Origin: Gimesia aquarii
GTDB lineage: Bacteria; Planctomycetota; Planctomycetia; Planctomycetales; Planctomycetaceae
Length of the DNA stretch: 64,000 bases
Direction: 5' to 3'
Assembly (NCBI RefSeq): GCF_007748195.1
Contig: NZ_CP037920.1
Coordinates: forward strand, 682,001-746,000
The translations under genes were made by a program, and so were the position numbers. Shown in pieces: positions 23,356 through 39,955 of the stretch. Positions within the stretch are counted from its first letter, which is position 1. Every line of letters begins with the position of its first letter. Below the pieces are notes generated by a model. The model ran no database searches. It was not told the DNA's origin and saw nothing but the letters and a program-made list of their open reading frames with translations.

Positions 23356-24069
23356 ATGCCAAGGACGGCAGAAAATATGCGGAATTCAATACAGATAAAA
23401 AAAACAGGTTCATTGAACCAGTACTGTTTGTCAGGCTTCTTGCTAGCGCTGGTTTGCTTGGGGGCCAGTGGATGCTCTTTATACGTCATGGCGGGCAAAA
23501 TGTTTTTTGGCGATCCGCTCCAAACTTGTGAGTTCAGTAGAACCACCAAGGTTGATCTGTCTGAAGAAGATAAAAAAGTTCTCGTCATCTGTTCGACACC
23601 GGAATCCATTCGTTCGGATTATCCCTCTTTAAATTACGATTTGCTGGAACAGATTACTTATCGTTTACGTCGCAATGATGTGAATGTGATGGATACTGGT
23701 AAGGTCGCTACCTGGCTGGATGACAATGGCGGCGTTTGGAACAACGTTGATGAATTAGCAGAAAATTTTGATGCCGACTATATTATTCATGTTGACATAG
23801 ATGAATTTGATTACCGAGAGCCAAACAGCCCCAACTTACTAAGAGGAAAAGCATTCGGGACTGTTTCAGCATATGAAGTCCGCGAGATAGACGGAATCAA
23901 ACGAGCTTTGGAAGTGTTTGCCAGTGAATATACTTCCGAGTATCCCAGTCACTTACCTGTGTCCATTGAATCTGAATCACCAAAAGTATTCAGGAAAAAA
24001 TACTTGGATCGCATTGCCGATCAGATTGGTCGTTTCTTCTATAACTATCGGACAGGAGCTGATATCTAG
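23356..24069 (+). CDS. Predicted lipoprotein, paralogue of the next gene
   Basis: 237 residues (230 if translation starts at the in-frame ATG 23377). The signal peptide ends in a lipobox LGASGC (Cys40, or Cys33 with the later start), so this is an envelope lipoprotein. The mature part has a beta/alpha pattern with VLVICSTPESIRSDYPSLNYD, a WLDDNG segment, YIIHVDIDEFDYRE and a C-terminal YLDRIADQIGRFFYNY. The same landmarks occur in the following gene, so the two are tandem duplicates. No family or function is recognised. Confidence 0.8.
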   Translation: MPRTAENMRNSIQIKKTGSLNQYCLSGFLLALVCLGASGCSLYVMAGKMFFGDPLQTCEFSRTTKVDLSEEDKKVLVICSTPESIRSDYPSLNYDLLEQITYRLRRNDVNVMDTGKVATWLDDNGGVWNNVDELAENFDADYIIHVDIDEFDYREPNSPNLLRGKAFGTVSAYEVREIDGIKRALEVFASEYTSEYPSHLPVSIESESPKVFRKKYLDRIADQIGRFFYNYRTGADI

Positions 24070-24133
24070 CTTTACCTGTAATTATCCAAAGATTGCGTCC
24101 AAAACTTATTTCGGAGTTGTGAAGGATCACACG

Positions 24134-24829
24134 ATGACAATTTTTTCGTTCGGACAACGATTTCATAAACAGTTTTTTAATACGGTCACCAAGCTTGTGA
24201 TGGTGTTGGTGTTATGTACGACCATGTCTGGTTGTAATTATTTCATCCTGTTGGGGTACTTGATTGGTGGCCCTCCCTCTATTGAGCCAGACTTCGATGC
24301 TCAGACACAAAAATCAATGACGGATAAGGATGTGACCGTTGCCATTGTTTGTTATGCCCCATTGGAATTGCAGTATAACTTCGATGGTCTCCACAATGAC
24401 TTGGCTAAATACACTACATTTCGCTTACACAGTCATGGAGTGAAAGTGGTCAATCCAGATCGTATTCGGGCCTGGTTGGATGAAAATCCTGATTGGGATA
24501 AGCCGGAAGAAATCGGCGAAGCTTTTGATGTGACTTATGTGATTCATGTCGAATTGCATGAATACAGTTTGTATGAGGAAAACAGCTCTGATCTGTATCG
24601 TGGTCACGCGGAAGGAATGGTGACCGTTTATGAAATGGACGAGGACGGGGAAGGTGAAAAACTTTACAGCAAGGAAATTACTTCTACTTATCCGCTCCGT
24701 GCTCCCAGAGCAACTTCGGAAGTCACCTTTTCCAAGTTCAAGAAAGAATATCTCTCTCGTTTAAGTGATGAAATTGGTCGACTGTTTTACGAATATTATC
24801 GTGGTGACGATTTCACTCATGCGATTTAG
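24134..24829 (+). CDS. Predicted lipoprotein, paralogue of the previous gene
   Basis: 231 residues from ATG 24134. The frame is open further upstream into the previous gene, but a GAAGGA ribosome site at 24121-24126 and the signal peptide fix this start. The lipobox is TMSGC (Cys34). The mature part aligns by eye with its neighbour: VAIVCYAPLELQYNFDGLHND, AWLDENPDW, YVIHVELHEYSLYEEN, and the C-terminal YLSRLSDEIGRLFYEYY. The conserved IHV-x-h-x-E/D-(F/Y) strand may be functional. Unknown family. Confidence 0.82.
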   Translation: MTIFSFGQRFHKQFFNTVTKLVMVLVLCTTMSGCNYFILLGYLIGGPPSIEPDFDAQTQKSMTDKDVTVAIVCYAPLELQYNFDGLHNDLAKYTTFRLHSHGVKVVNPDRIRAWLDENPDWDKPEEIGEAFDVTYVIHVELHEYSLYEENSSDLYRGHAEGMVTVYEMDEDGEGEKLYSKEITSTYPLRAPRATSEVTFSKFKKEYLSRLSDEIGRLFYEYYRGDDFTHAI

Positions 24830-27358: not shown

Positions 27359-28378
27359 TTATTGCAACTCGGTTTTCAGGCTGGCCCGTCGAGCGCAACC
27401 GGCTGCACCGATATAACCTGCGTCAGATCCGAGAGTTGCAAAGTCAATGATTGTATTTTCATAGGGGACGCTAAACGCGCGGATTTTGACTTCTTCGCGA
27501 ATTCGATTCATAAAACGCTGACCTAATGTGGAGTCCTTGCCTCCAAATGTTGCAGCACCGCCAAACAGAACCATATCAGGATCAATGGTATGCATCAAAG
27601 TGGTTGTTCCCACGCCCAGATACATGGCTGAATCCATAATCAGTTCGTTTGATAGTTCATCATTTTGTTCTGCTTCCTGTGCAATTAATAGTGGTGTCAG
27701 TTTGATTCCTTCTTGCAATCGTTCATTCAAGCTGGAAGCACGTCCCGAATCGAGTTCCTCCTGACAACGACGTACCAGAGACTTAGCTCCTGCATATGCT
27801 TCGAGCGTTCCATATTGGCCCGAATCACACAAGCGTCCATTTGTCATTTGAATAATCATATGACCGCATTCACCTCCATGTGAATGTCGACCTTCAATGA
27901 TCATCTCATCGATAATGATACCACAGCCAATTCCAGTACCCAACGTCCAGAAAACCAGGCTCTGTGCATGCTGGGCACCTCCCACCCAGTATTCTCCATA
28001 GGCGGCTGCATTGGCATCGTTTTGAAGTATCGTTTTTTTACCTGAGTAATGATCACAGATGACCTGCCGGATAGGAAAATCTTTCCATGTTGGTAGATTG
28101 GGAGGATCTACCAGTTTTCCACCTGGAATATCCATCGTACCTGGTGTGGCAATTCCAATCGCTTTGACATCGTCCATCGTAAAATTACAGTCTGACAAAA
28201 CGTCCTGAATCGCGTGGTAAAGGTTTTGTATACCGACGTCAACTCCTTTGACTACTTCGGTTTTAGTTTTGCAAAACGCGAGAGTTTGTCCAGAGTCATC
28301 TACAACGCCAACCTTGATATTTGTACCACCAATATCAACACCGACAAAATAAGGTGCATTGTGTTTTGTCGGTTTCAT
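27359..28378 (-). CDS. ROK family sugar kinase (glucokinase-like)
   Basis: 339-residue ROK protein with ATP-binding phosphate motif VGVDIGGTNIKVGVVD at the N terminus, catalytic NDANAAAYGEY and the GTGIGCGIII motif. No N-terminal HTH, so it is a kinase, not a repressor. The usual ROK zinc motif CxCGxxGCxE is degenerate: LCDSGQYGTLE keeps only the first Cys, although the preceding GGECGHM His is present. It therefore probably lacks structural zinc or uses other ligands. Likely phosphorylates glucose or a related hexose in the cytoplasm. Confidence 0.88.
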   Translation of the reverse strand: MKPTKHNAPYFVGVDIGGTNIKVGVVDDSGQTLAFCKTKTEVVKGVDVGIQNLYHAIQDVLSDCNFTMDDVKAIGIATPGTMDIPGGKLVDPPNLPTWKDFPIRQVICDHYSGKKTILQNDANAAAYGEYWVGGAQHAQSLVFWTLGTGIGCGIIIDEMIIEGRHSHGGECGHMIIQMTNGRLCDSGQYGTLEAYAGAKSLVRRCQEELDSGRASSLNERLQEGIKLTPLLIAQEAEQNDELSNELIMDSAMYLGVGTTTLMHTIDPDMVLFGGAATFGGKDSTLGQRFMNRIREEVKIRAFSVPYENTIIDFATLGSDAGYIGAAGCARRASLKTELQ

Positions 28379-28837: not shown

Positions 28838-30316
28838 ATGAATTTTCATGGTAGAGTTTTTGTCGTCATTTTGTTTTGTTGTTTTTGCATAAGCAGTGCC
28901 ACACATTCTGTAGGTGCAGTTCAAAGGCAAGCCAGCCGTCCGAATATCATTCTTTGTATGACCGACGATCAAGGTTGGGGTGAAACCAGTTTCAATGGTC
29001 ACTCGATCCTCAAAACTCCCCATCTTGATGATATGGCTGCCAGTGGGCTTCGCTTTGATCGGTTTTATGCCGCGGCTCCTGTCTGTTCGCCAACACGAGG
29101 GAGCTTTCTCACAGGAAGACATCCCAATCGATTTGCTTGTTTCAGTTGGGGGCACACACTCAGGCCACAGGAAGTGACAGTCGCGGAAGCCGTCAAGTCA
29201 GCAGGATATACGACAGGACACTTTGGCAAGTGGCATCTGGGATCAGTGCAGGCGAATAGTCCCGTGTCCCCTGGAAACAGCGGTTTTGATGAGTGGGTTT
29301 CAAGTCCGAATTTTTATGAAAACGACCCTTATATGAGTCACAATGGAACTGTGACTCAGTTGAAAGGGGAGAGTTCACGTGTAACCGTTGATGCCGCGCT
29401 TGAGTTTATCAAACAATCAAAGATGAAGGAGAAGCCCTTCCTTGCTGTAATCTGGTTTGGAAATCCTCATACACCTCATGAAGCGACTTCCGAATTAAAA
29501 GATCTTTATCAGAACCAGTCAGCAGATTTTCAAAACTATTTTGGCGAGATTACCGGCGTCGATCGAGCCATGGGGTATTTACGTCGACAGTTAAGAGATT
29601 TAGGGTTAGCAGAAAACACACTTCTCTGGTTTACCAGTGACAATGGGCCTCGTCCTCCTCGATTTAAAAAAGAAGACTCTCGTTCACAAGCTACGGGAGG
29701 ACTTGCCGGGTGGAAGGGGAATCTCTGGGAGGGAGGCATTCGTGTGCCTTCAATCATCGAGTGGCCTGCCCAAATTCAAAAACCGGAAGTTACCAATGTA
29801 CCCTGTGGGACTATCGATATTTATCCAACTGTTCTGGCTGTTACCGGAGCGAAGGTTTCACATCAACCTCATTTAGATGGTGTCAGCCTTTTGCCGCTGA
29901 TAGAAGGACAAATGACGTCTCGTTCCAAGCCAATGGGATTCTGGACCTATCCTGCTAAAGGACATCCCAAACGTAGTACAGAAATATTGCTTAAACTAAA
30001 ACAACAACAGACGCCAGAAAAACCGAATCCTGAAGGCCCAGTTCCCGATGCGGGGGCTGCCAGTCTAAAAACAAAGTACTCAAAGGACGACTTACCAGGA
30101 GCAGCAGCTTGGATTGATGGTGATTATAAATTATTAAAAATGATTTCTAAAGAGAATCAGCCTCAATATACGCTTTATAATCTCGCTCAAGACCATTCTG
30201 AGAAAAAAGATCTTTCGAAAGTTGACCCCAAGCGATTTCGGAAGATGAAAGCAGGTCTACTTGATTGGCAGCACTCAGTAGTTGATAGTCTGAATGGGAA
30301 GGATTACTCAGATTGA
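28838..30316 (+). CDS. Secreted sulfatase (formylglycine-dependent, type I)
   Basis: 492-residue enzyme with a signal peptide (about residues 1-28). The metal-binding start TDDQGWGE and the sulfatase signature CSPTRGSFLTGRHPNR are present, with C83 the residue expected to become formylglycine. Later sulfatase features are FGKWHLG, HTPHEA and FTSDNGP. It should hydrolyse sulfate esters, probably from sulfated polysaccharide, in the periplasm or outside the cell. The anaerobic or aerobic maturase is not in the window. Substrate class cannot be assigned by eye. An AGAGG lies 9 bases before the ATG. Confidence 0.94.
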   Translation: MNFHGRVFVVILFCCFCISSATHSVGAVQRQASRPNIILCMTDDQGWGETSFNGHSILKTPHLDDMAASGLRFDRFYAAAPVCSPTRGSFLTGRHPNRFACFSWGHTLRPQEVTVAEAVKSAGYTTGHFGKWHLGSVQANSPVSPGNSGFDEWVSSPNFYENDPYMSHNGTVTQLKGESSRVTVDAALEFIKQSKMKEKPFLAVIWFGNPHTPHEATSELKDLYQNQSADFQNYFGEITGVDRAMGYLRRQLRDLGLAENTLLWFTSDNGPRPPRFKKEDSRSQATGGLAGWKGNLWEGGIRVPSIIEWPAQIQKPEVTNVPCGTIDIYPTVLAVTGAKVSHQPHLDGVSLLPLIEGQMTSRSKPMGFWTYPAKGHPKRSTEILLKLKQQQTPEKPNPEGPVPDAGAASLKTKYSKDDLPGAAAWIDGDYKLLKMISKENQPQYTLYNLAQDHSEKKDLSKVDPKRFRKMKAGLLDWQHSVVDSLNGKDYSD

Positions 30317-30641: not shown

Positions 30642-32336
30642 ATGAACTCGGGACTTTTGAAACGGCTATTCAGCCTGACAACTCTTTTGTTATTGGTACT
30701 ATCAGTGGCGTTTAACAGTTCTTTGATGGCTGCAGAGGCCAAAAAAGAATTAAAGGCAGGCATCATTGGTCTCGATACTTCCCATGCAATCGCTTTCACG
30801 AAAATGCTTAATACCGGAACTCCTGAGGGAGAACTGGCCGGTGTGCGGATAGTTGCTGCCTATCCGAAGGGGAGCCCCGATATTGAATCCAGTGTATCTC
30901 GTGTTCCAAAATATACGGAAGAAGTCAAAAAAATGGGGGTCGAGATTGTTGGTTCCATTGACGACCTACTTAAGAAAGTAGACGTAGTTTTTCTGGAAAC
31001 TAACGACGGGCGTCCCCATTTAGAGCAAGCGATTCCTGTATTTCAAGCGGGTAAACCAGTCTTTATTGATAAGCCCATTGCCGGTTCACTTACTGATGCC
31101 GTTGCCTTGTTTGAACTTTCGCGCAAATATAACACTCCCATGTTTTCCTCATCTTCTCTTCGTTTTTCGAAAGGGGCACAGCGTCTGAGAAATGGTAAAG
31201 AGGGAAAGATTACTAAATGCAGTACGCATAGCCCTTGTTCTTTAGAGAAAACACATCCCAGTCTCTTCTGGTATGGAATTCATGGTGTAGAAACTTTGTT
31301 TACTGTGATGGGGCCAGGCTGCCAGTCAGTTAAAAGGACAGTCAGCAATGCTGATCGTGATGAGGTCGTCGGACGATGGGCCGGGGGAAGAGTGGGACAA
31401 TTCTCTGGTGTACGCAAGGGGGCTCCCAAGGGGTATGGCGGAACAGCTGTTGGCGAGAACGGGGAAGTGGCAGTTGGTGGCTACGACGGCTACAAGCCTT
31501 TGCTGGTCGAAATTGTCAAATTTTTCCGTTCGGGTAAACCACCTGTGAGTGAAGAGGAAACACTGGAGATCTATAGCTTCATGGAAGCCGCCGACGAAAG
31601 TAAGCGTCAGGGAGGCGCTGAGGTCACGCTCGCGAGTGTTCTCGAAAAAGCAGAAAGAGCAGCAAATAAGAAACTCGCGAAACTGGATTTGGCGGGTGGT
31701 AGTGTTTCTGCCACTGATAATAAACTTTCTGCTGCTGAGAAAGCCGCTGGTTGGAAGTTGCTGTTTAACGGGAAAAACTATGCAGGATGGAAATGTAATA
31801 ACGGCAAGCCGATCGCGGCTCCCATCGAAGATGGGGCTCTGGTTCCCTATAAATCAGGTGGTTATCTAATCGTTTACGACAAGGCGTTTAGTGATTTTAA
31901 ATTCAAATGCGATGTAAAAATGCCTAAAGAATGCAACTCAGGAATTTTCTTTCGCATTGGTAATTTGAAAGACCCGGTTCAGACTGGGTTTGAGGCTCAG
32001 ATTCTGAGTGGGAAAGGGACTGGTATGCATGATTTTGGAGCGATCTATGACCTTGTTGCTCCAGCAGAGAACCGGGCAAGTGCACCCGGTGAATGGACCA
32101 GTATTGAGATCACCTGCCAGGGGCCACATATTAGTGTCGCCGTGAATGGAAAAGTTGTTGCCAGTCTGGATGCGGATGAGTGGACTCAACCAGGAAAAAG
32201 GCTGGACGGTTCAAAGCATAAGTTTAAGACTGCTGTGAAAGACTTTCCTAGAAAGGGATATCTTGGATTTCAGGATCACGGTCATAAAGTTTGGTATAAA
32301 AATGTGAAGCTGCTGGATCTCTCAAAGAAGAAATAA
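30642..32336 (+). CDS. Exported Gfo/Idh/MocA-type oxidoreductase fused to DUF1080 (3-keto-disaccharide hydrolase family)
   Basis: 564 residues from ATG 30642; TGAGGA (30631-30636) lies just before it, so the upstream TTG is not the start. A Sec-like signal peptide (1-30, ending LMAAEA) is followed by a Gfo/Idh/MocA-like domain (about 35-345). That domain has GIIGLDTSHAIAFTKML in place of the usual GxGxxG, a FIDKPIAG motif where family members have EKP, and a candidate catalytic His in WYGIHGVETL. A C-terminal DUF1080/LamG-like domain (about 365-564) begins at GWKLLFNGKNYAGW. DUF1080 is now linked to hydrolysis of 3-keto-glycosides, so oxidation and cleavage could be done by one polypeptide. 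This pairing is inference. Confidence 0.85.
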   Translation: MNSGLLKRLFSLTTLLLLVLSVAFNSSLMAAEAKKELKAGIIGLDTSHAIAFTKMLNTGTPEGELAGVRIVAAYPKGSPDIESSVSRVPKYTEEVKKMGVEIVGSIDDLLKKVDVVFLETNDGRPHLEQAIPVFQAGKPVFIDKPIAGSLTDAVALFELSRKYNTPMFSSSSLRFSKGAQRLRNGKEGKITKCSTHSPCSLEKTHPSLFWYGIHGVETLFTVMGPGCQSVKRTVSNADRDEVVGRWAGGRVGQFSGVRKGAPKGYGGTAVGENGEVAVGGYDGYKPLLVEIVKFFRSGKPPVSEEETLEIYSFMEAADESKRQGGAEVTLASVLEKAERAANKKLAKLDLAGGSVSATDNKLSAAEKAAGWKLLFNGKNYAGWKCNNGKPIAAPIEDGALVPYKSGGYLIVYDKAFSDFKFKCDVKMPKECNSGIFFRIGNLKDPVQTGFEAQILSGKGTGMHDFGAIYDLVAPAENRASAPGEWTSIEITCQGPHISVAVNGKVVASLDADEWTQPGKRLDGSKHKFKTAVKDFPRKGYLGFQDHGHKVWYKNVKLLDLSKKK

Positions 32337-32358: not shown

Positions 32359-32396
32359 GCCACCTGAAAGGCATTTCCTCTTCAGGTGGCTTTTTT
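32359..32396 (+). terminator. Intrinsic terminator after the oxidoreductase-DUF1080 gene
   Basis: A perfect 10-bp stem GCCACCTGAA / TTCAGGTGGC (32359-32368 with 32381-32390), a 12-base loop and then TTTTTT (32391-32396), starting 22 bases after the stop codon. Confidence 0.93.
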
Positions 32397-32784: not shown

Positions 32785-34131
32785 ATGATTACAATTAAAA
32801 AAGGGTTGGATCTGCCTATTTCGGGTGAGCCTTCCGCTCTGATCGAACAGGGGCCAGAAATTCGATCGATTGCTCTGATTGGTCCTGATTATATTGGCAT
32901 GAAGCCCACATTGGCTGTTGAAATCGGTGATACGGTCAAAAAAGGTCAGATGCTTTTCAGCGACAAAAAAACGGAAGGTGTGATATATACTTCTCCAGTT
33001 GGCGGGAAAGTAACGGAAATCAATCGAGGTGCCAAACGCGCCTTTCAGAGTATGGTGCTTGAAGTCCAGGGAACTGATGAAGAAACATTTGCCTCTTATG
33101 GTGATGAAGAACTGGCGAATCTGACACGCGAACAAGTTCAAGAGAACTTGTTGAATTCTGGTTTGTGGTCAAGTTTGAGAACACGCCCCTTTAGTCGTGT
33201 GCCTGCTCCGGGATCAATACCACATTCTATTTTTGTGACTGCGATCGATACAAATCCCTTAGCACCACCTCCGGAAGTCATTCTTAGTGAAGAACCTCGC
33301 GCTTTCTCACAGGGATTGCAGTTATTGAAGACTTTAACCGACGGAAAGCTATTTCTTTGCAAGGCGCCGGGAACAAATTTACCTGGTTGCGATCTTGATT
33401 TTGTTACAGTTGAGGAATTTGGCGGTCCGCATCCCGCGGGGCTCGTGGGGACACATGTTCATTTTCTTGATCCGGTCAGCGAGAAAAAAACAGTTTGGAA
33501 TATCAATTATCAAGACGTGATTGCCATCGGCAAGTTGTTTACTACAGGTAAGCTCTCCGTAGAACGTGTTATTTCGATTGCGGGTCCTGCGGTTAAAAGT
33601 CCAAAGTTAGTGAAAACGATTCTGGGGGCCAGTCTCGCTGACTTGACAGATGGAAATCTTGAAGAAGGCGAAAATCGGTTAGTTTCGGGTTCAGCGCTTT
33701 CGGGGCGGACTGGCGAAGGTCCTTTTGCATATTTAGGCCGTTATGCCTCGCAGGTAACGGGATTAAAAGAGGGCAATCATCGCGACTTTCTCGGATGGAT
33801 GGGACCTGGTTTCAATAAGTTCTCTGTCGTTCCGGTATTTATTTCTTCCTGGTTGGGACAGGGGAAAAAGTTCCCTTTTACCACTTCCACAGAAGGTAGT
33901 AAACGGGCCATGATTCCGATTGGAACTTATGAAAAAGTCATGCCGTTGGATATTTTACCTACGTTCCTGTTGCGTGCCTTGATTACCGAAGATACAGAAC
34001 AGGCAAAAGAGTTGGGATGCCTGGAACTTGATGAAGAAGACTTATCGTTATGCACCTTTGTGTGTCCCGGGAAATATAACTACGGATCACTATTGCGTAA
34101 AAACCTGACAAAGATAGAAATTGAAGGTTAA
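32785..34131 (+). CDS. nqrA: Na+-translocating NADH:quinone reductase subunit A
   Basis: 448-residue soluble NqrA, first gene of the sodium-pumping NADH:quinone oxidoreductase operon. The N-terminal [12 protein letters not shown] and the C-terminal [14 protein letters not shown] segments are characteristic, and the length matches the family. NqrA sits on the cytoplasmic side and contributes to quinone binding. It is followed by an intrinsic-terminator-like hairpin and a 214-base gap before nqrB, which is wider than between any other genes of the operon. Confidence 0.96.
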
Positions 34132-34143
34132 TTTTATAGATGT

Positions 34144-34172
34144 TCTCCCTCTTTGAAATAGGGAGATTTTTT
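34144..34172 (+). terminator. Intrinsic-terminator-like hairpin between nqrA and nqrB
   Basis: TCTCCCT (34144-34150) pairs with AGGGAGA (34160-34166) around a 9-base loop, directly followed by TTTTTT (34167-34172). It lies 12 bases after the nqrA stop. In form it is a complete intrinsic terminator, inside an operon whose products form one complex. Confidence 0.75.
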
Positions 34173-34345
34173 AAATACGATGCGTTCAACTGTGCTGTCA
34201 TTAGCCTGATAGATAAAAGTTGTTAGCCCTGATTTTCATCTTCAAACAAGTTTGTTTCAGATGATAACCGATATAAGTTAAAGTCGACAATTACTTGGCT
34301 TACCATGTATCGGAAGGGCATCACACAAGAAAGATAAACTACGAA

Positions 34346-35590
34346 ATGAAGCCGTTACGAAATCTTCTTGATAAGGTGCACCCTCTTTTTGATAAAGGAG
34401 GGAAGTTCGAGAAGCTTTACCCACTTTATGAGGCGAATGATACATTCCTCTATACTCCGGGTGAAGTGACAAATGAAGCTTCTCATGTGCGTGATTCGAT
34501 TGACCTGAAACGCATGATGAGCATGGTGATCGTGGCTTTGCTTCCCTGTGTCTTCATGGCTCTTTACAATACCGGTTATCAAGCCAACGCTGCGATGAGT
34601 ACCATGGGCATAGAATCTGTTCCTGGTTGGCGCGGAACTGTAATGGCCTCTCTGGGAGTCATCCCGGATGCTAACAGCATGCTTTCTAACCTGTTACATG
34701 GTGCGCTTTACTTCTTCCCAGTCTACATCGTATGTATGGCCGTTGGTGGGATGTGGGAAGGCCTCTTTTGCATCATCCGACGTCATGAAATCAATGAAGG
34801 CTTCCTCGTAACTGGGATGCTCTTTCCCTTATCGCTGCCACCCACAATTCCACTTTGGCAAGTCGCCATAGGAATCTCGTTTGGAGTTGTGGTTGGTAAA
34901 GAAATATTTGGGGGGACTGGTAAGAACTTTTTGAATCCAGCGTTAACCGCTCGTGCATTTCTTTATTTCGCTTATCCCGCTCAGATTGTGGGTGATACTG
35001 TCTGGACTGCCGTGGATGGCTTCAGTGGTGCTACTTCACTCGGTCAGTTAGCTGTCGCAAGTCCTGAAGTTGGAATGAAATCCATAACGAACCCTGTCGC
35101 CGACGGTGGTTTGGGGATTAGCTGGATGCAGGCCTTTATGGGGCAGATTCAAGGATCGATGGGAGAGACCTCGACCTTTGCTTGCCTGTTAGGTGCTATC
35201 TTTCTGATACTGGCAGGCATTGGTTCCTGGCGGGTGATGGCAGGAGTTTTGGCCGGATCGATGGGGCTTTCTGTTCTGCTTTGGTTAATTGGCAGTAACA
35301 CAAATGCGATGTTCTCGATGCCACCTCAATGGCATTTAGTTGTAGGAGGGCTGGCCTTTGGTCTGGTCTATATGGCCACAGATCCGGTTTCAGCAGCGAT
35401 GACTGATACAGGGCGATGGGTCTATGGAATTTTAATTGGTGGAATGACGATCCTGATTCGGGTCATCAATCCAGCGTATCCAGAGGGGATTATGTTGGCA
35501 ATTTTGTTTGGAAATGTCTTCGCGCCTCTGATTGACTTCTATGTGGTTCAAGCAAACATTAAAAGAAGGTTGGCGCGAAATGTCGCGTGA
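34346..35590 (+). CDS. nqrB: Na+-translocating NADH:quinone reductase subunit B
   Basis: 414 residues from ATG 34346 ([10 protein letters not shown]), the start that fits NqrB; a TTG 51 bases upstream only adds a non-conserved tail. Polytopic membrane subunit that carries covalent FMN on Thr in the SGAT motif (T230, in GFSGATSLG) and forms part of the sodium channel with a riboflavin site. Flavinylation would be done by the ApbE encoded downstream. The last 11 bases overlap nqrC. Confidence 0.96.
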
Positions 35591-36383
35591 TTCAATTGGT
35601 TTCACATTTATGGTGTCGGCTGCGTTATGCGTAGTCTGTTCAATTCTCGTATCCGGTGCTGCTGTAGGTTTACGCAGTCGTCAGGATTTGAATAAAGAGA
35701 ATGAGCGTAAGAAAAATATCCTTTCCGCAGCAGGATTGATCAATCCCGATGCTGCTGCTAATGAGATCAGTAAAGTTTACGATGAGCGGGTCAAGGGTAT
35801 CATCGTGGATCTCAACACAGGAAAAGTTGTTACCGATGATAAGGAATTATTTCCTAATCCTCAGGAGTACGATCAAAAAGCGGCGGCTGATAACCCAAAG
35901 ATGAGTATGGAAATCCCTTCGGCTGAAGATTTAGCTGGAATCAAACGCCGCGAGAATTATTCCTGGGTCTATTTGATCAACGACGAAAATGGCAAGCTGT
36001 CGCAGTACGTGCTTCCCGTCAGAGGAAAAGGACTCTGGTCGACTTTATGGGGGTTCCTGGCTTTAGATACCAATTTAAACACAATAGCCGGCTTGACGTT
36101 TTACGAACATGGGGAAACACCTGGATTAGGTGGAGAAGTTGATAATCCCAAATGGAAAGCACTTTGGAAAGGCAAAGAAGCCTACGGCAAAGACTTCGAA
36201 CCTGAGATTGAAGTTATTAAGGGGACAGTGGTTCCAGATTCTAAGAATGCCATACATGAAGTGGATGGACTCTCCGGGGCAACGATTACCTCACGTGGTG
36301 TGACCCACCTACTGGATTTCTGGCTTGGAAATTTAGGATTTAGACCTTATCTCGAAAGTATTCGAGAACAGGGAGAAAAATAG
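35580..36383 (+). CDS. nqrC: Na+-translocating NADH:quinone reductase subunit C
   Basis: 267 residues from ATG 35580, chosen because AGAAGG lies about 10 bases upstream and [10 protein letters not shown] matches the family start; the open frame extends 16 codons further into nqrB. One N-terminal membrane helix (about 6-30) and a periplasmic FMN domain with covalent attachment Thr in [10 protein letters not shown] (T235). It passes electrons between NqrF/NqrD-E and NqrB. It overlaps nqrB by 11 bases and nqrD starts 1 base after its stop. Confidence 0.95.
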
Positions 36384-36384
36384 A

Positions 36385-37008
36385 ATGAATTCAAAACAAA
36401 AAGAGGTTCTGACAGGACCGATTTTCAATAATAACCCCATTGCTTTACAAATTCTCGGAATTTGTTCTGCTTTGGCTGTAACCACCAAAATGGAGACAGC
36501 ACTCGTTATGAGTATCGCAGTGATTTTGGTGACTGCCTGCTCCAATGCCGCGGTGGCTTCTATCAGATTACAGATTCCTAGCAGCATTCGAATTATCGTC
36601 CAAATGACAATTATTGCTTCGTTGGTGATCCTGGTAGATCAGTTTCTAAAGGCATTCGCATTTGGAATCAGCAAACAGCTTTCAGTATTTGTAGGGTTGA
36701 TTATCACCAACTGTATTGTGATGGGGCGCGCAGAAGGTTTTGCTATGAAAAATGAGCCCGGTATCAGTTTTCTGGATGGGCTGGGAAATGGTTTAGGTTA
36801 TAGCCTCATTTTAATGATCGTGGCCTTCTTTCGGGAACTGTTTGGATCAGGCAGCTTATTTGGAATCCCATTATTAAAACTAAGTCGCGATGGTGGTTGG
36901 TATGAGGCCAATGGTTTGATGTTATTACCTCCGAGCGCGTTTTTTATTATCGGTATTTTCATTTGGATTTTGAGAGTTTGGAAAACCGATCAAATGGAGG
37001 AGGCATAA
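36385..37008 (+). CDS. nqrD: Na+-translocating NADH:quinone reductase subunit D
   Basis: 207-residue membrane subunit with six hydrophobic segments. The conserved cysteines proposed to ligate the intramembrane Fe-S centre shared with NqrE are present in LGICSAL (C27) and [17 protein letters not shown]. Homologous to RnfE and to NqrE, of which it is a partner in an inverted-repeat fold. Tightly packed: one base from nqrC and one base from nqrE. Confidence 0.96.
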
Positions 37009-37009
37009 C

Positions 37010-37621
37010 ATGTTTGAACATTATCTGAGCCTGTTTATAAAATGCTTGTTCATTGAGAATCTGGCTTTGGCTTTCTTTTTGGGAATGTGTACCTTTTTGG
37101 CCGTTTCCAAGAATGTTAAAACCGCCATTGGTTTGGGGATTGCTGTTATCGTGATTCAGACGATTACAGTACCCGTAAATAATGTGATCTATCAACACCT
37201 CCTGAAAAAAGGAGCTTTAGCCTGGGCTGGATATCCCAATGTAGATCTTACATTTGTGGGATTGATCTGCTATATCGGCGTGATAGCTGCCATGGTTCAG
37301 ATTCTGGAAATGACTTTGGATCGGTTTTTTCCTGCTTTGTATAACACGTTGGGAATTTTCCTGCCTTTGATTACTGTAAACTGTGCGATTTTGGGAGGCA
37401 CATTGTTCATGGTCGAACGTGATTATAACTTCCCTGAAAGTTGTGTTTTCGGCTTTGGATCAGGTGTAGGCTGGGCTCTAGCGATTATGGCATTGGCTGG
37501 AATTCGCGAAAAAATGAAGTACAGCGATGTCCCACTCGGATTACAGGGATTAGGGATCACATTCATTACCGTAGGATTGATGGCGATGGCCTTCATGGCG
37601 TTTTCTGGAATCCAATTATAA
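37010..37621 (+). CDS. nqrE: Na+-translocating NADH:quinone reductase subunit E
   Basis: 203-residue membrane subunit, six hydrophobic segments, homologous to RnfA and NqrD. The conserved Cys pair is in [10 protein letters not shown] (C27) and [11 protein letters not shown]. With NqrD it holds the intramembrane Fe-S centre that connects NqrF with NqrC. GGAGG lies ahead of the ATG inside the end of nqrD. Confidence 0.96.
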
Positions 37622-37665
37622 GTCTTTTAACTACTTCTATTTTTTAGAGCGGTCAACGTTTTATC

Positions 37666-38889
37666 ATGGTTATAGAAATTCTGTTCGGCGTTGTTATGTT
37701 TACGGGCATTGTCATAGCCCTGGTTGCCATCATCTTGGTTGCAAAGTCGAAACTGGTTGCCTCTGGTAATGTCACAATCACGGTTAACGAACAGAAGCAG
37801 ATTGAAGTCCCCGTTGGTGGTAAATTACTGAACGCACTTGCCGAAAATCAGATTTTCGTCTCTTCGGCCTGTGGTGGTGGTGGAACTTGTGCTCAATGTG
37901 AAGTCAAAGTTCTGGAAGGTGGAGGAGATATCTTACCGACGGAACGTTCCCATTTTAATAATCGGGAAGTACGCGAAGGCTGTCGTTTATCCTGTCAGGT
38001 GCCTGTAAAGAGCAGTATGGAAATCGAAGTCCCACCAGAGGTCTTCGAAACTAAGAAGTGGGTTTGTAAAGTCAGATCCAACGACAACGTTGCAACCTTT
38101 ATTAAAGAACTTGTTCTCGAATTGCCTGCTGGTGAAGATGTGGACTTCAAGGCGGGCGGATTTATTCAGATTGAAGCACCGCCACACCATATTAAATATA
38201 GTGACTTCGATATTCCTGAAGAATACAAGGAAGACTGGGATAATTTCAACTTATGGCGATTTGAATCTAAAGTAGATGAAGAAGTAATTCGCGCCTATTC
38301 CATGGCCAATTACCCGGGGGAAAAGGGAATCATCATGCTGAATGTGCGTGTTGCGTCTCCACCTCCCCGTTCACCAGAAGGCACACCTCCTGGTAAAATG
38401 TCTTCCTATATCTTCGACTTAAAACCGGGTGATGAAGTTACGATCTCCGGTCCGTATGGAGAATTTTTCATCCAGGAAACAGAGGCGGAAATGATCTATA
38501 TCGGTGGGGGAGCCGGTATGGCTCCTCTACGATCACATATCTATGAGCTCTTCAAAGAACGTGAAACGAACCGAAAAGTGTCGTATTGGTACGGTGCTCG
38601 TAGCTTACGGGAAATGTTTTACGAAGATGAGTTCCGAGCTCTCGAAGAGAAGTTCCCCAATTTCAAAATGCACGTTGCCTTGTCTGATCCGGTTCCAGAA
38701 GACAACTGGGATGGTCTACAAGGTTTTATTCACCAAGTGTTATTGGATGAGTATTTAAGTAAACATCCTGCACCCGAGGACTGTGAATACTATATCTGTG
38801 GACCTCCAATGATGTTGTCTGCCGTTCGGAATATGCTGGATGACTTAGGAGTCGAGCCTGAGAATATCCGCTATGATGACTTTGGCTAG
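37666..38889 (+). CDS. nqrF: Na+-translocating NADH:quinone reductase subunit F
   Basis: 407-residue NADH-oxidising subunit. An N-terminal membrane helix (about 3-26), a [2Fe-2S] ferredoxin domain with C69, C75, C78 and C110 (spacing exactly that of NqrF), an FAD domain with RAYSMANYP and an NADH-binding domain with [11 protein letters not shown] and a C-terminal YICGPPMM. It starts electron flow into the complex from cytoplasmic NADH. Its last 17 bases overlap the start of apbE. Confidence 0.97.
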
Positions 38890-39955
38890 TCGCCGCCACA
38901 AACTGTTTCTGCGCGTTGCCGTTTTACTGCTGTTGATCTTTCCTGCCACGGCATGTCAAACTGACCAGTCTGATTCTACTGCAGACTCACTGAGTAAGCA
39001 GCAGTTTCAGGGCCCCACAATGGGGACGTCTTACCATATCACGATCTGCACTATGCCTGTGGATCAGGTTAATGCCGATCTGCTTAAACAAGAAGTAGAT
39101 CAACTTTTAGAAAACGTCAACGCTCAGATGTCAACTTACATCGAGACATCTGAGTTATCCCGATTCAATCAATCGCAATCCGATCAATGGTTTGAAGTTT
39201 CTCCATCGGTATTAAAAGTCGTTGAAGCAGGCCTCAACTTAAGTAAAGAGAGTGCAGGCGCCTTTGATATGACGGTAGGTCCTCTAGTCAACCTGTGGCA
39301 CTTTGGTCCCGTTCCAGGTAAAAAAGCATTACCAGAATCCACTCAGATATTAGCGACGAAAAAGAAAGTGGGTTATCAGTACATTGAATTACAACATGAT
39401 GAAGCTGCGTTGAAGAAGTTAATACCCAATGTCTACCTTGACCTCTCGGCAATTGCAAAAGGGTACGCTGTAGATATTGTTGCAAAATATCTTGACTCAC
39501 AATTCATCGAAAACTATCTGGTCGAAATTGGTGGGGAGATGCGGGCTAAAGGTGTGAATCAAAAACAAGTTCCCTGGAAAGTGGGAATTGAAAAACCAAT
39601 TAGTGAAACACGCACAATCCAAAAAGTTGTTCCACTTTCCAATCTGTCGATGGCTACTTCGGGCAATTATCGTAATTTTTTTGAAGTGGATGGTAAAACG
39701 TTTTCTCATACCATTGATCCCCGTACAGGTTATCCTGTGGAACATTCTCTGGCCTCTGTCACGGTTGTCGGAGAAACTTGTATGAACTGTGATGCACTTG
39801 CAACATGCCTGATGGTATTAGGCCCCGATGAGGGGTATAATTGGGCTAAAGAGCGGAAGATCGCTGCTTACTTTATTGTAAAAGAGGAAAATGGTTTTAC
39901 AGAACGATATTCCCCACGCTGGCAGAAATTGTTGGGAGAGGAAAACGAATCATGA
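38873..39955 (+). CDS. apbE: FAD:protein FMN transferase (ApbE), lipoprotein
   Basis: 360-residue lipoprotein (lipobox PATAC, C28) of the ApbE family, which attaches FMN by a phosphoester bond to Thr in SGAT motifs such as those of NqrB and NqrC. Family features include [11 protein letters not shown] near residue 44, [16 protein letters not shown] and [14 protein letters not shown]. Overlap with nqrF and with nqrM at either end makes it a fixed part of the nqr transcript. Confidence 0.95.

Follow-up and report, generated by a model that had tools for sequence, protein, structure and literature searches.

Oxidation of a sugar at C3 followed by elimination is a young route of glycan breakdown with broad specificity, and work from 2024 is said to describe such a broad-specificity alternative for breaking down glycans. 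To our knowledge, C3 oxidation with elimination has so far been tied to ordinary NAD-dependent Gfo/Idh/MocA enzymes, a superfamily in which the Asp and His of a D-x-x-x-H motif are the catalytic residues.

On the cleaving side, a DUF1080 protein was reported to be important for lactose use in Caulobacter, and BT2157 was named a 3-ketotrehalose hydrolase, both in one paper (PMC9007349). The same paper describes a periplasmic 3'-ketolactose route in Caulobacter with LacABC and a DUF1080 protein (CCNA_01705), which resembles the proposal made below in its exported cleaving step and in placing C3 oxidation before cleavage. There, the oxidant is a membrane-bound dehydrogenase, whereas in the locus described here a Gfo/Idh/MocA-fold domain is joined to the DUF1080 domain itself. 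A contrasting view proposed DUF1080 proteins as xanthan glycosidases (PMC5673643), and 3-keto glycosides also undergo beta-elimination by unrelated Mn enzymes (PMC10628242).

The fusion gene and its surroundings

The window, i.e. the whole 64-kb stretch of DNA analysed, corresponds to positions 682001-746000 of a Gimesia genome of 7.40 Mb on a single contig. Within it, one frame runs uninterrupted from an ATG at 30642 to a stop codon ending at 32336 and encodes 564 amino acids; the program-made list of open reading frames starts the same frame upstream at TTG 30630. The features discussed below are as follows.

27359..28378, minus strand: sugar kinase of the ROK family, a divergent neighbour that is kept in the genus
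28838..30316, plus strand: sulfatase (PF00884, E 2.2e-56; weak SGSH_C; CSPTR read), kept in the genus
30642..32336, plus strand: fusion gene, signal peptide, DTSH-type Gfo/Idh/MocA-fold domain and DUF1080 (PF06439), 564 aa
30642..30734, plus strand: Sec-type signal peptide, residues about 1-31, read by eye; twin arginine absent
30747..31649, plus strand: Gfo/Idh/MocA-fold domain of the DTSH subfamily, residues about 36-336, from model and structure comparison
30768..30785, plus strand: GLDTSH in place of GxGxxG, residues 43-48
31068..31076, plus strand: DKP, counterpart of the Gfo/Idh/MocA EKP, residues 143-145
31272..31292, plus strand: YGIHGVE, residues 211-217; His214 aligns with the His of the TM_0414 D-x-x-x-H
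31746..32327, plus strand: DUF1080 / 3-keto-disaccharide hydrolase domain, residues about 369-562, from Pfam and model
32359..32396, plus strand: likely intrinsic terminator, hairpin of 9-10 base pairs with a loop of about 12, then a T run, read from the sequence

An earlier note on this DNA had described a single exported chain carrying both domains, and this description holds, with PF01408 and PF06439 both matched over their cut-offs behind an N-terminal signal that was read by eye. The fusion is not a chance product and recurs in relatives. It was found at 63-95% identity in eight named loci (L003-L010, one of them truncated by a contig end) and in further genomes of the same genus; in an even sample of the phylum (245 planctomycetotal genomes), it is limited to five genomes of that genus. 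A literature search found no paper on a DTSH-DUF1080 fusion.

Downstream of the fusion lies an NqrA-F-like operon with an ApbE-type gene (window 32785-39955), named by eye and kept in the genus. With a hairpin and T run directly after the fusion gene, transcription into these NqrA-F-like genes probably stops short. The terminator scan had a loop limit of 8, and this hairpin is absent from its list; promoter and terminator counts of the scan were no higher than in shuffles, and an Rfam scan of the window gave zero matches. Elsewhere in the window, two similar consecutive genes for small lipoprotein-like products were seen at 23356-24829.

The C-terminal domain

The DUF1080 assignment is, together with the rebuilt loop of the DTSH domain, the strongest part of the analysis. 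PF06439 (3-keto-disaccharide hydrolase, the former DUF1080) was matched over residues 370-557 (E 3.1e-43, 148.4 bits against a cut-off of 26.8), spanning positions 1-186 of the 187 in the profile. Since the full-length model was weaker over this part (block pLDDT about 44-91), a separate model of the domain was built from 45 related sequences and reached a pLDDT of 95.6. The solved structures nearest to this model all belong to the DUF1080 family, and those with a named function are 9fbe and 8rr2 (3-keto-glycoside eliminase/hydratase), 8v31 and 8tda (3-keto-2-hydroxy-glucal hydratase) and 3osd (BT2157), all at Z 24-25; the next other family is CBM66 at Z 16. With BT2157 (3osd, 8tda), 8v31, 8rr2 and 9fbe, the window domain has in common the fold (189-190 of 197 residues aligned), the Pfam family and the conserved positions, and it differs from them in being joined to the C-terminal end of a DTSH domain.

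Where at least 70% of 54 DUF1080 rows agree on a residue, the window protein has it too, for example at the family-conserved positions E451, Q453, G466, Y469, W485, N502, Q544 and H546. Compared with the characterised enzyme 8v31, it has a shorter loop behind the ExQ. Judged by the model, the DUF1080 half probably cleaves 3-keto sugars, and the tie to 3-keto-glycoside cleavage that had been suggested for it is backed by the match to the solved eliminase/hydratases.

The N-terminal domain and its rebuilt loop

One reading of the N-terminal half is that of an NAD(P)-dependent C3 dehydrogenase, by which the chain alone would oxidise and then cleave a glycoside. The overall fold speaks for it. Residues 33-336 were modelled with a pLDDT of about 95 and adopt the Gfo/Idh/MocA fold, at Z 24-28 against NAD(P)-dependent structures (GenD2, KanD2, TM_0414 and others) and, among the 50 rows listed, with an rmsd of 2.3-3.4 over 265-289 aligned residues. 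The described oxidoreductases closest by sequence (TM_0414, 3ezy) and by fold (GenD2, 6nor; KanD2, 6jw6) have a lysine of the EKP type, here in DKP, and a histidine in the C-terminal domain in common with the window protein, and the retention of these two residues also counts in favour of this reading.

The cofactor side of the domain argues against this reading. The PF01408 (GFO_IDH_MocA) match covers residues 84-164 (E 1.1e-8, 36.3 bits against a cut-off of 24) and opens at profile position 42, which is behind the dinucleotide-binding loop. Unlike ordinary Gfo/Idh/MocA enzymes, the DTSH domain lacks the GxGxxG, and strand 2 does not end in an acidic residue, as read from a 29-row alignment. 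When aligned with TM_0414, the window protein has Trp210 where the D-x-x-x-H motif has its Asp, and it retains His214. It has GxDxxH where GxGxxG would stand and was hence not classed among the NAD(P)-dependent oxidoreductases; its score against NF058561 (BT2158-type) is 15.6 bits against a cut-off of 750. The unusual dinucleotide motif that had been pointed out from the sequence, GLDTSH, is thus present, and D-[T/S]-S-H turned out to be a trait of the whole subfamily.

Among 82 aligned relatives (A2), the loop reads GLDTSH in 77 rows, GLDTGH in three, and GCDTSH and GVDTSH in one each. Twenty more distant planctomycetotal members keep D45, H126 and H214 throughout and S47, H48 and K144 in 19/20 each; four of them (L090, L091, L095 and L098) have Asp in place of the first motif glycine and still keep D-[T/S]-S-H. 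Lys144 of DKP is invariant in A2 and also in the 29-row alignment (A3, which excludes the decayed L096, and L104), where D45, H48, F52, D114, H126, D143, P145, S171, R174, Y211, H214 and P301 are invariant as well. Going by these alignments, the active-site side of the fold is conserved and the dinucleotide loop rebuilt. As GxGxxG is lost and D-[T/S]-S-H is conserved, canonical NAD(P) binding by the DTSH half is doubtful.

A solved structure with D-T-S-H was sought by two profile searches, and among the matches listed the best stretches start behind the loop: none of the 60 listed PDB rows had its best stretch starting before profile position 44 and 30, respectively, with negligible side matches to 3uuw as the exception, and absence from these lists is silent on other folds. 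This, too, counts against the dehydrogenase reading.

Two further observations concern the loop in other proteins. A DTSH paralogue in another genome (L096, G137) has a decayed motif (GFDNYQ) and no DKP, and is perhaps a pseudo-enzyme. In the window's own genome, two PF01408 proteins without export signal (L191 and L192, G000:C1 at 3.32 Mb and 4.57 Mb) have a first strand ending in NDTSAH or NETGAH and may possibly represent a second lineage with a rebuilt loop.

Export signals

The earlier note had also raised export without Tat, and this was borne out by a hydrophobic N-terminus without a twin arginine, read by eye. PF01408 has 49 matches in the window's genome, of which two are DTSH proteins (the window protein and its paralogue L084), both with plain signal peptides without RR as read by eye. 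The other 47 comprise 27 with a Tat signal and 20 without a signal, so that Tat is found in 27/27 of the exported ordinary relatives in the same genome. Signals were assigned with a crude script plus inspection by eye; the script alone gave 23 Tat, 18 without signal, three Sec and three unread, and reading of the frames by eye turned these into the counts above. The loops of 22 script-readable other PF01408 proteins (30 loci examined) were 17 GxGxx[GSAM], three GxAxxA, one GxNxxG and one misreading, and GxDxxH occurred in 0/22.

Planctomycete DTSH proteins use Sec export (signals read by eye), in contrast to the exported ordinary Gfo/Idh/MocA proteins of this genome, which weighs against an NAD(P)-loaded dehydrogenase. 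On the other side, cofactor-loaded proteins often carry Tat signals, and all 25 Bacteroidota/Balneolota DTSH proteins read have one (6/6 and 20/20, one gene common to both). This favours the dehydrogenase and argues against a simple rule of 'no cofactor, no Tat'.

Repeated linkage of DTSH and DUF1080

DUF1080 is fused to DTSH in 16 of 114 DTSH frames (15 without one duplicate), the number of DUF1080 domains ranging from one to three; the 80 named loci were selected by likeness to the fusion, and this fraction is no population frequency. In five more of the 114 frames, a same-strand DUF1080 gene lies within 800 bp of DTSH. Most DTSH loci have no DUF1080 partner. The DUF1080 tree unites the Gimesia-type partners, those of L009 and L010 and the unfused neighbour in L024 in one 100/100 clade. 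It places the DUF1080 partners of L015, L028 and L031 at three other points and the Bacteroidota/Balneolota ones at another. In the DTSH tree, the fusion label requires at least three changes. By these two trees, DTSH joined DUF1080 more than once and with different DUF1080 subfamilies. Such repeated and independent linkage makes a joint function of both domains on one sugar likely.

The DTSH subfamily was found in 143/222 genomes of one Bacteroidota family and in 32/245 planctomycetotal genomes. The nearest relatives of the window DUF1080 (at least 60% identity) are confined to six of the 245 planctomycetotal genomes, five of them of one genus, and DTSH is present in all six; in G220, the closest unfused DUF1080 and the DTSH gene are on different contigs. 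Other arrangements were seen as well. An N-terminal WD40 beta-propeller is present on 25/114 DTSH frames (L017, L018, L022-L024, L032 and others), an architecture seen in planctomycetes. Apart from the fusion, two DUF1080 genes of the window's genome adjoin ordinary Tat-exported Gfo/Idh/MocA genes (G000:C1:6185852-6186971, L111/L158; 3392243-3393351, L112/L161).

Link to GlcNAc (nag) genes

The Bacteroidota family with 143 DTSH-positive genomes is the one in which GTDB places the L060 genome (label Spirosomataceae). For a count of nagA, every second positive genome was taken by hand (72 of 143), and nagA was present in 72/72. Five whose DTSH place fell outside the listing (G256, G284, G423, G425 and G459) were dropped, which left 67. 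In these, nagA lies within 15 kb of DTSH in 57, within 10 kb in 55 and within 1 kb in 11, where the 57 are genomes of kin and reflect persistence of the cluster, not 57 independent events. It is downstream of DTSH in all 57 (46 same strand, 11 convergent). Genomes with nagA not within 15 kb were G312 (32 kb), G384, G389, G400, G402, G405, G416, G430, G453 and G455, some of them at contig ends. About 0.6 would be expected by chance (hand estimate from two nagA, 30 kb and about 7 Mb), and chance adjacency in Bacteroidota was ruled out by the 57/67.

Twenty Bacteroidota stretches, chosen mostly for a near nagA and spanning the spacing classes, contained NagP in 19/20, NagA in 19/20, a BT2158-like dehydrogenase in 17/20, NagB in 17/20 and a LacI-type regulator in 10/20. 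The usual order was DTSH, BT2158-like dehydrogenase (often with intervening genes), NagP, NagA, NagB; the names of nag-cluster genes were confirmed by NCBIfam for one cluster and L026. Glycoside 3-dehydrogenases of the BT2158 and BT2159 types (NF058561, NF058563) belong to the same superfamily as DTSH and are its genomic partners in these clusters; the BT2158-type partners carry Tat signals where read, unlike the window protein. An ordinary BT2158-like dehydrogenase, usually present in the same cluster, would make a second oxidising enzyme redundant, unless DTSH is a reductase, and this again speaks against a DTSH dehydrogenase.

A DUF1080 gene of the L026 type is located at most 65 bp from DTSH in 8/67 genomes. 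NagX is also present in L026, and L143, L145 and L147 each have a distant NagX-like gene immediately before DTSH on its upstream side (profile match for L143 and L147); NagX is the glucosamine N-acetyltransferase treated in PMC9007349. At L203:11961-13382, a Gfo/Idh/MocA relative of lipoprotein-like appearance was noticed, which ends in PF16490 and has EPGHFH where the glycine motif would be; relatives of it occur in six other of the 20 stretches, and the type closes several nag clusters.

In planctomycetes, nagA or nagB is near DTSH in L009 (nagA 73 bp from a fusion gene), L027, L040, L073, L102 and L103. The 32 planctomycetotal DTSH genomes have nagA in 27 cases, near DTSH in only two (G105 and G194, of one family). 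In the window's genome, nagA is at 2.03 Mb, nagB at 0.15 and 4.60 Mb and the fusion at 0.71 Mb, i.e. there is no nag link. Strong as it is in one Bacteroidota family, the link is suggestive for the window. For the Gimesia fusion, the assignment to GlcNAc is carried over from relatives, since in planctomycetes the link is rare and in the window's genome it is absent.

Proposed function and alternatives

Several observations, namely the domain make-up, the folds, the missing glycine motif, the recurrent joining of DTSH and DUF1080 and the placement of DTSH in Bacteroidota nag clusters, can be combined in an exported two-domain enzyme. Its extracytoplasmic substrate would be a 3-keto pyranoside, most likely a GlcNAc-type one, and the chances of this proposal are put at about even. 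C3 of the sugar would be oxidised by a Tat-exported ordinary Gfo/Idh/MocA 3-dehydrogenase, a BT2158-like partner. The DUF1080 half would eliminate the aglycone and then re-add water to the 2-substituted-3-keto-glucal. The DTSH half would work on the same 3-keto or 3-hydroxy sugar, with D45, H48, D122, H126, K144 and H214 as the putative site, and could be either an acid-base enzyme that needs no cofactor or an oxidoreductase whose cofactor is unusual or comes from outside. Uptake of the free amino sugar via NagP may follow, and a kinase, NagA and NagB would then degrade it. More tentatively, and with a clearly smaller probability, DTSH proteins as a group may be Gfo/Idh/MocA-fold enzymes without canonical dinucleotide binding that perform an extracytoplasmic, cofactor-independent or differently fuelled 3-keto-amino-sugar step feeding GlcNAc to nag catabolism, fused in Gimesia to an eliminase/hydratase.

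The idea that the chain first oxidises and then cleaves, as the earlier note had it, stands in so far as a Gfo/Idh/MocA fold and DUF1080 are on one chain and their linkage recurs; for oxidation with NAD(P), the sequence lends no such support, as the NAD(P) glycine motif is absent and D-[T/S]-S-H is found instead. On balance, a self-sufficient NAD(P)-dependent C3 dehydrogenase is considered unlikely, and it is the best surviving of the alternatives.

Less probable still is a DTSH half that is a non-catalytic sugar-binding or scaffold domain and offers the substrate to both DUF1080 and the partner dehydrogenase. Such a role would fit the lost cofactor motif and the fusion of relatives to an interaction-type module, the WD40 propeller on 25 of the 114 frames, but catalysis-like polar residues (D45, H48, D114, H126, D143, K144, R174, Y211 and H214) are invariant in 29 divergent rows, beyond what a scaffold needs.

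The sulfatase gene is directly upstream, with a gap of 325 bases from its end at 30316 to the fusion start. A same-strand sulfatase about 200-330 bp upstream of the fusion is seen in the window, L003, L004, L005, L007 and L008, in L006 it is about 1.25 kb away, and L136-L139 have the same gene order as the window. Within 6 kb, a sulfatase was present in 13/81 loci, six of them the Gimesia loci L003-L008, which by hand estimate is not above what sulfatase density would give; it is near DTSH in 3/20 Bacteroidota stretches. The window's genome has 96 sulfatase-profile matches, a few of which are halves of one gene, and with so many a sulfatase neighbour is cheap. At fusion loci outside the genus (L009, L010, L015 and L031), a search for sulfatases found none. 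As a general functional partner, the sulfatase was ruled out by the 96 matches and the 13/81 loci, and it remains a genus trait. The neighbourhood noted earlier is thus confirmed and kept in the genus, co-occurrence of fusion and sulfatase extends over L003-L008 and L136-L139 and was not found at the four loci outside, and the polysaccharide-degrading context drawn from it is weak. That the fusion acts with this sulfatase on a sulfated polysaccharide, the Bacteroidota GlcNAc link being not applicable to Gimesia, is favoured by the conserved gene order and the three Bacteroidota stretches and is nevertheless, given the counts above, the least probable reading, and a very unlikely one.

Significance

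DTSH is a widespread subfamily that has the Gfo/Idh/MocA fold without its dinucleotide motif, was joined several times to a cleaving domain and is kept in nag clusters, which points to an exported step of amino-sugar salvage. It raises a testable puzzle, namely how a cofactor is supplied to exported enzymes of the Gfo/Idh/MocA fold, or whether these enzymes may dispense with it.
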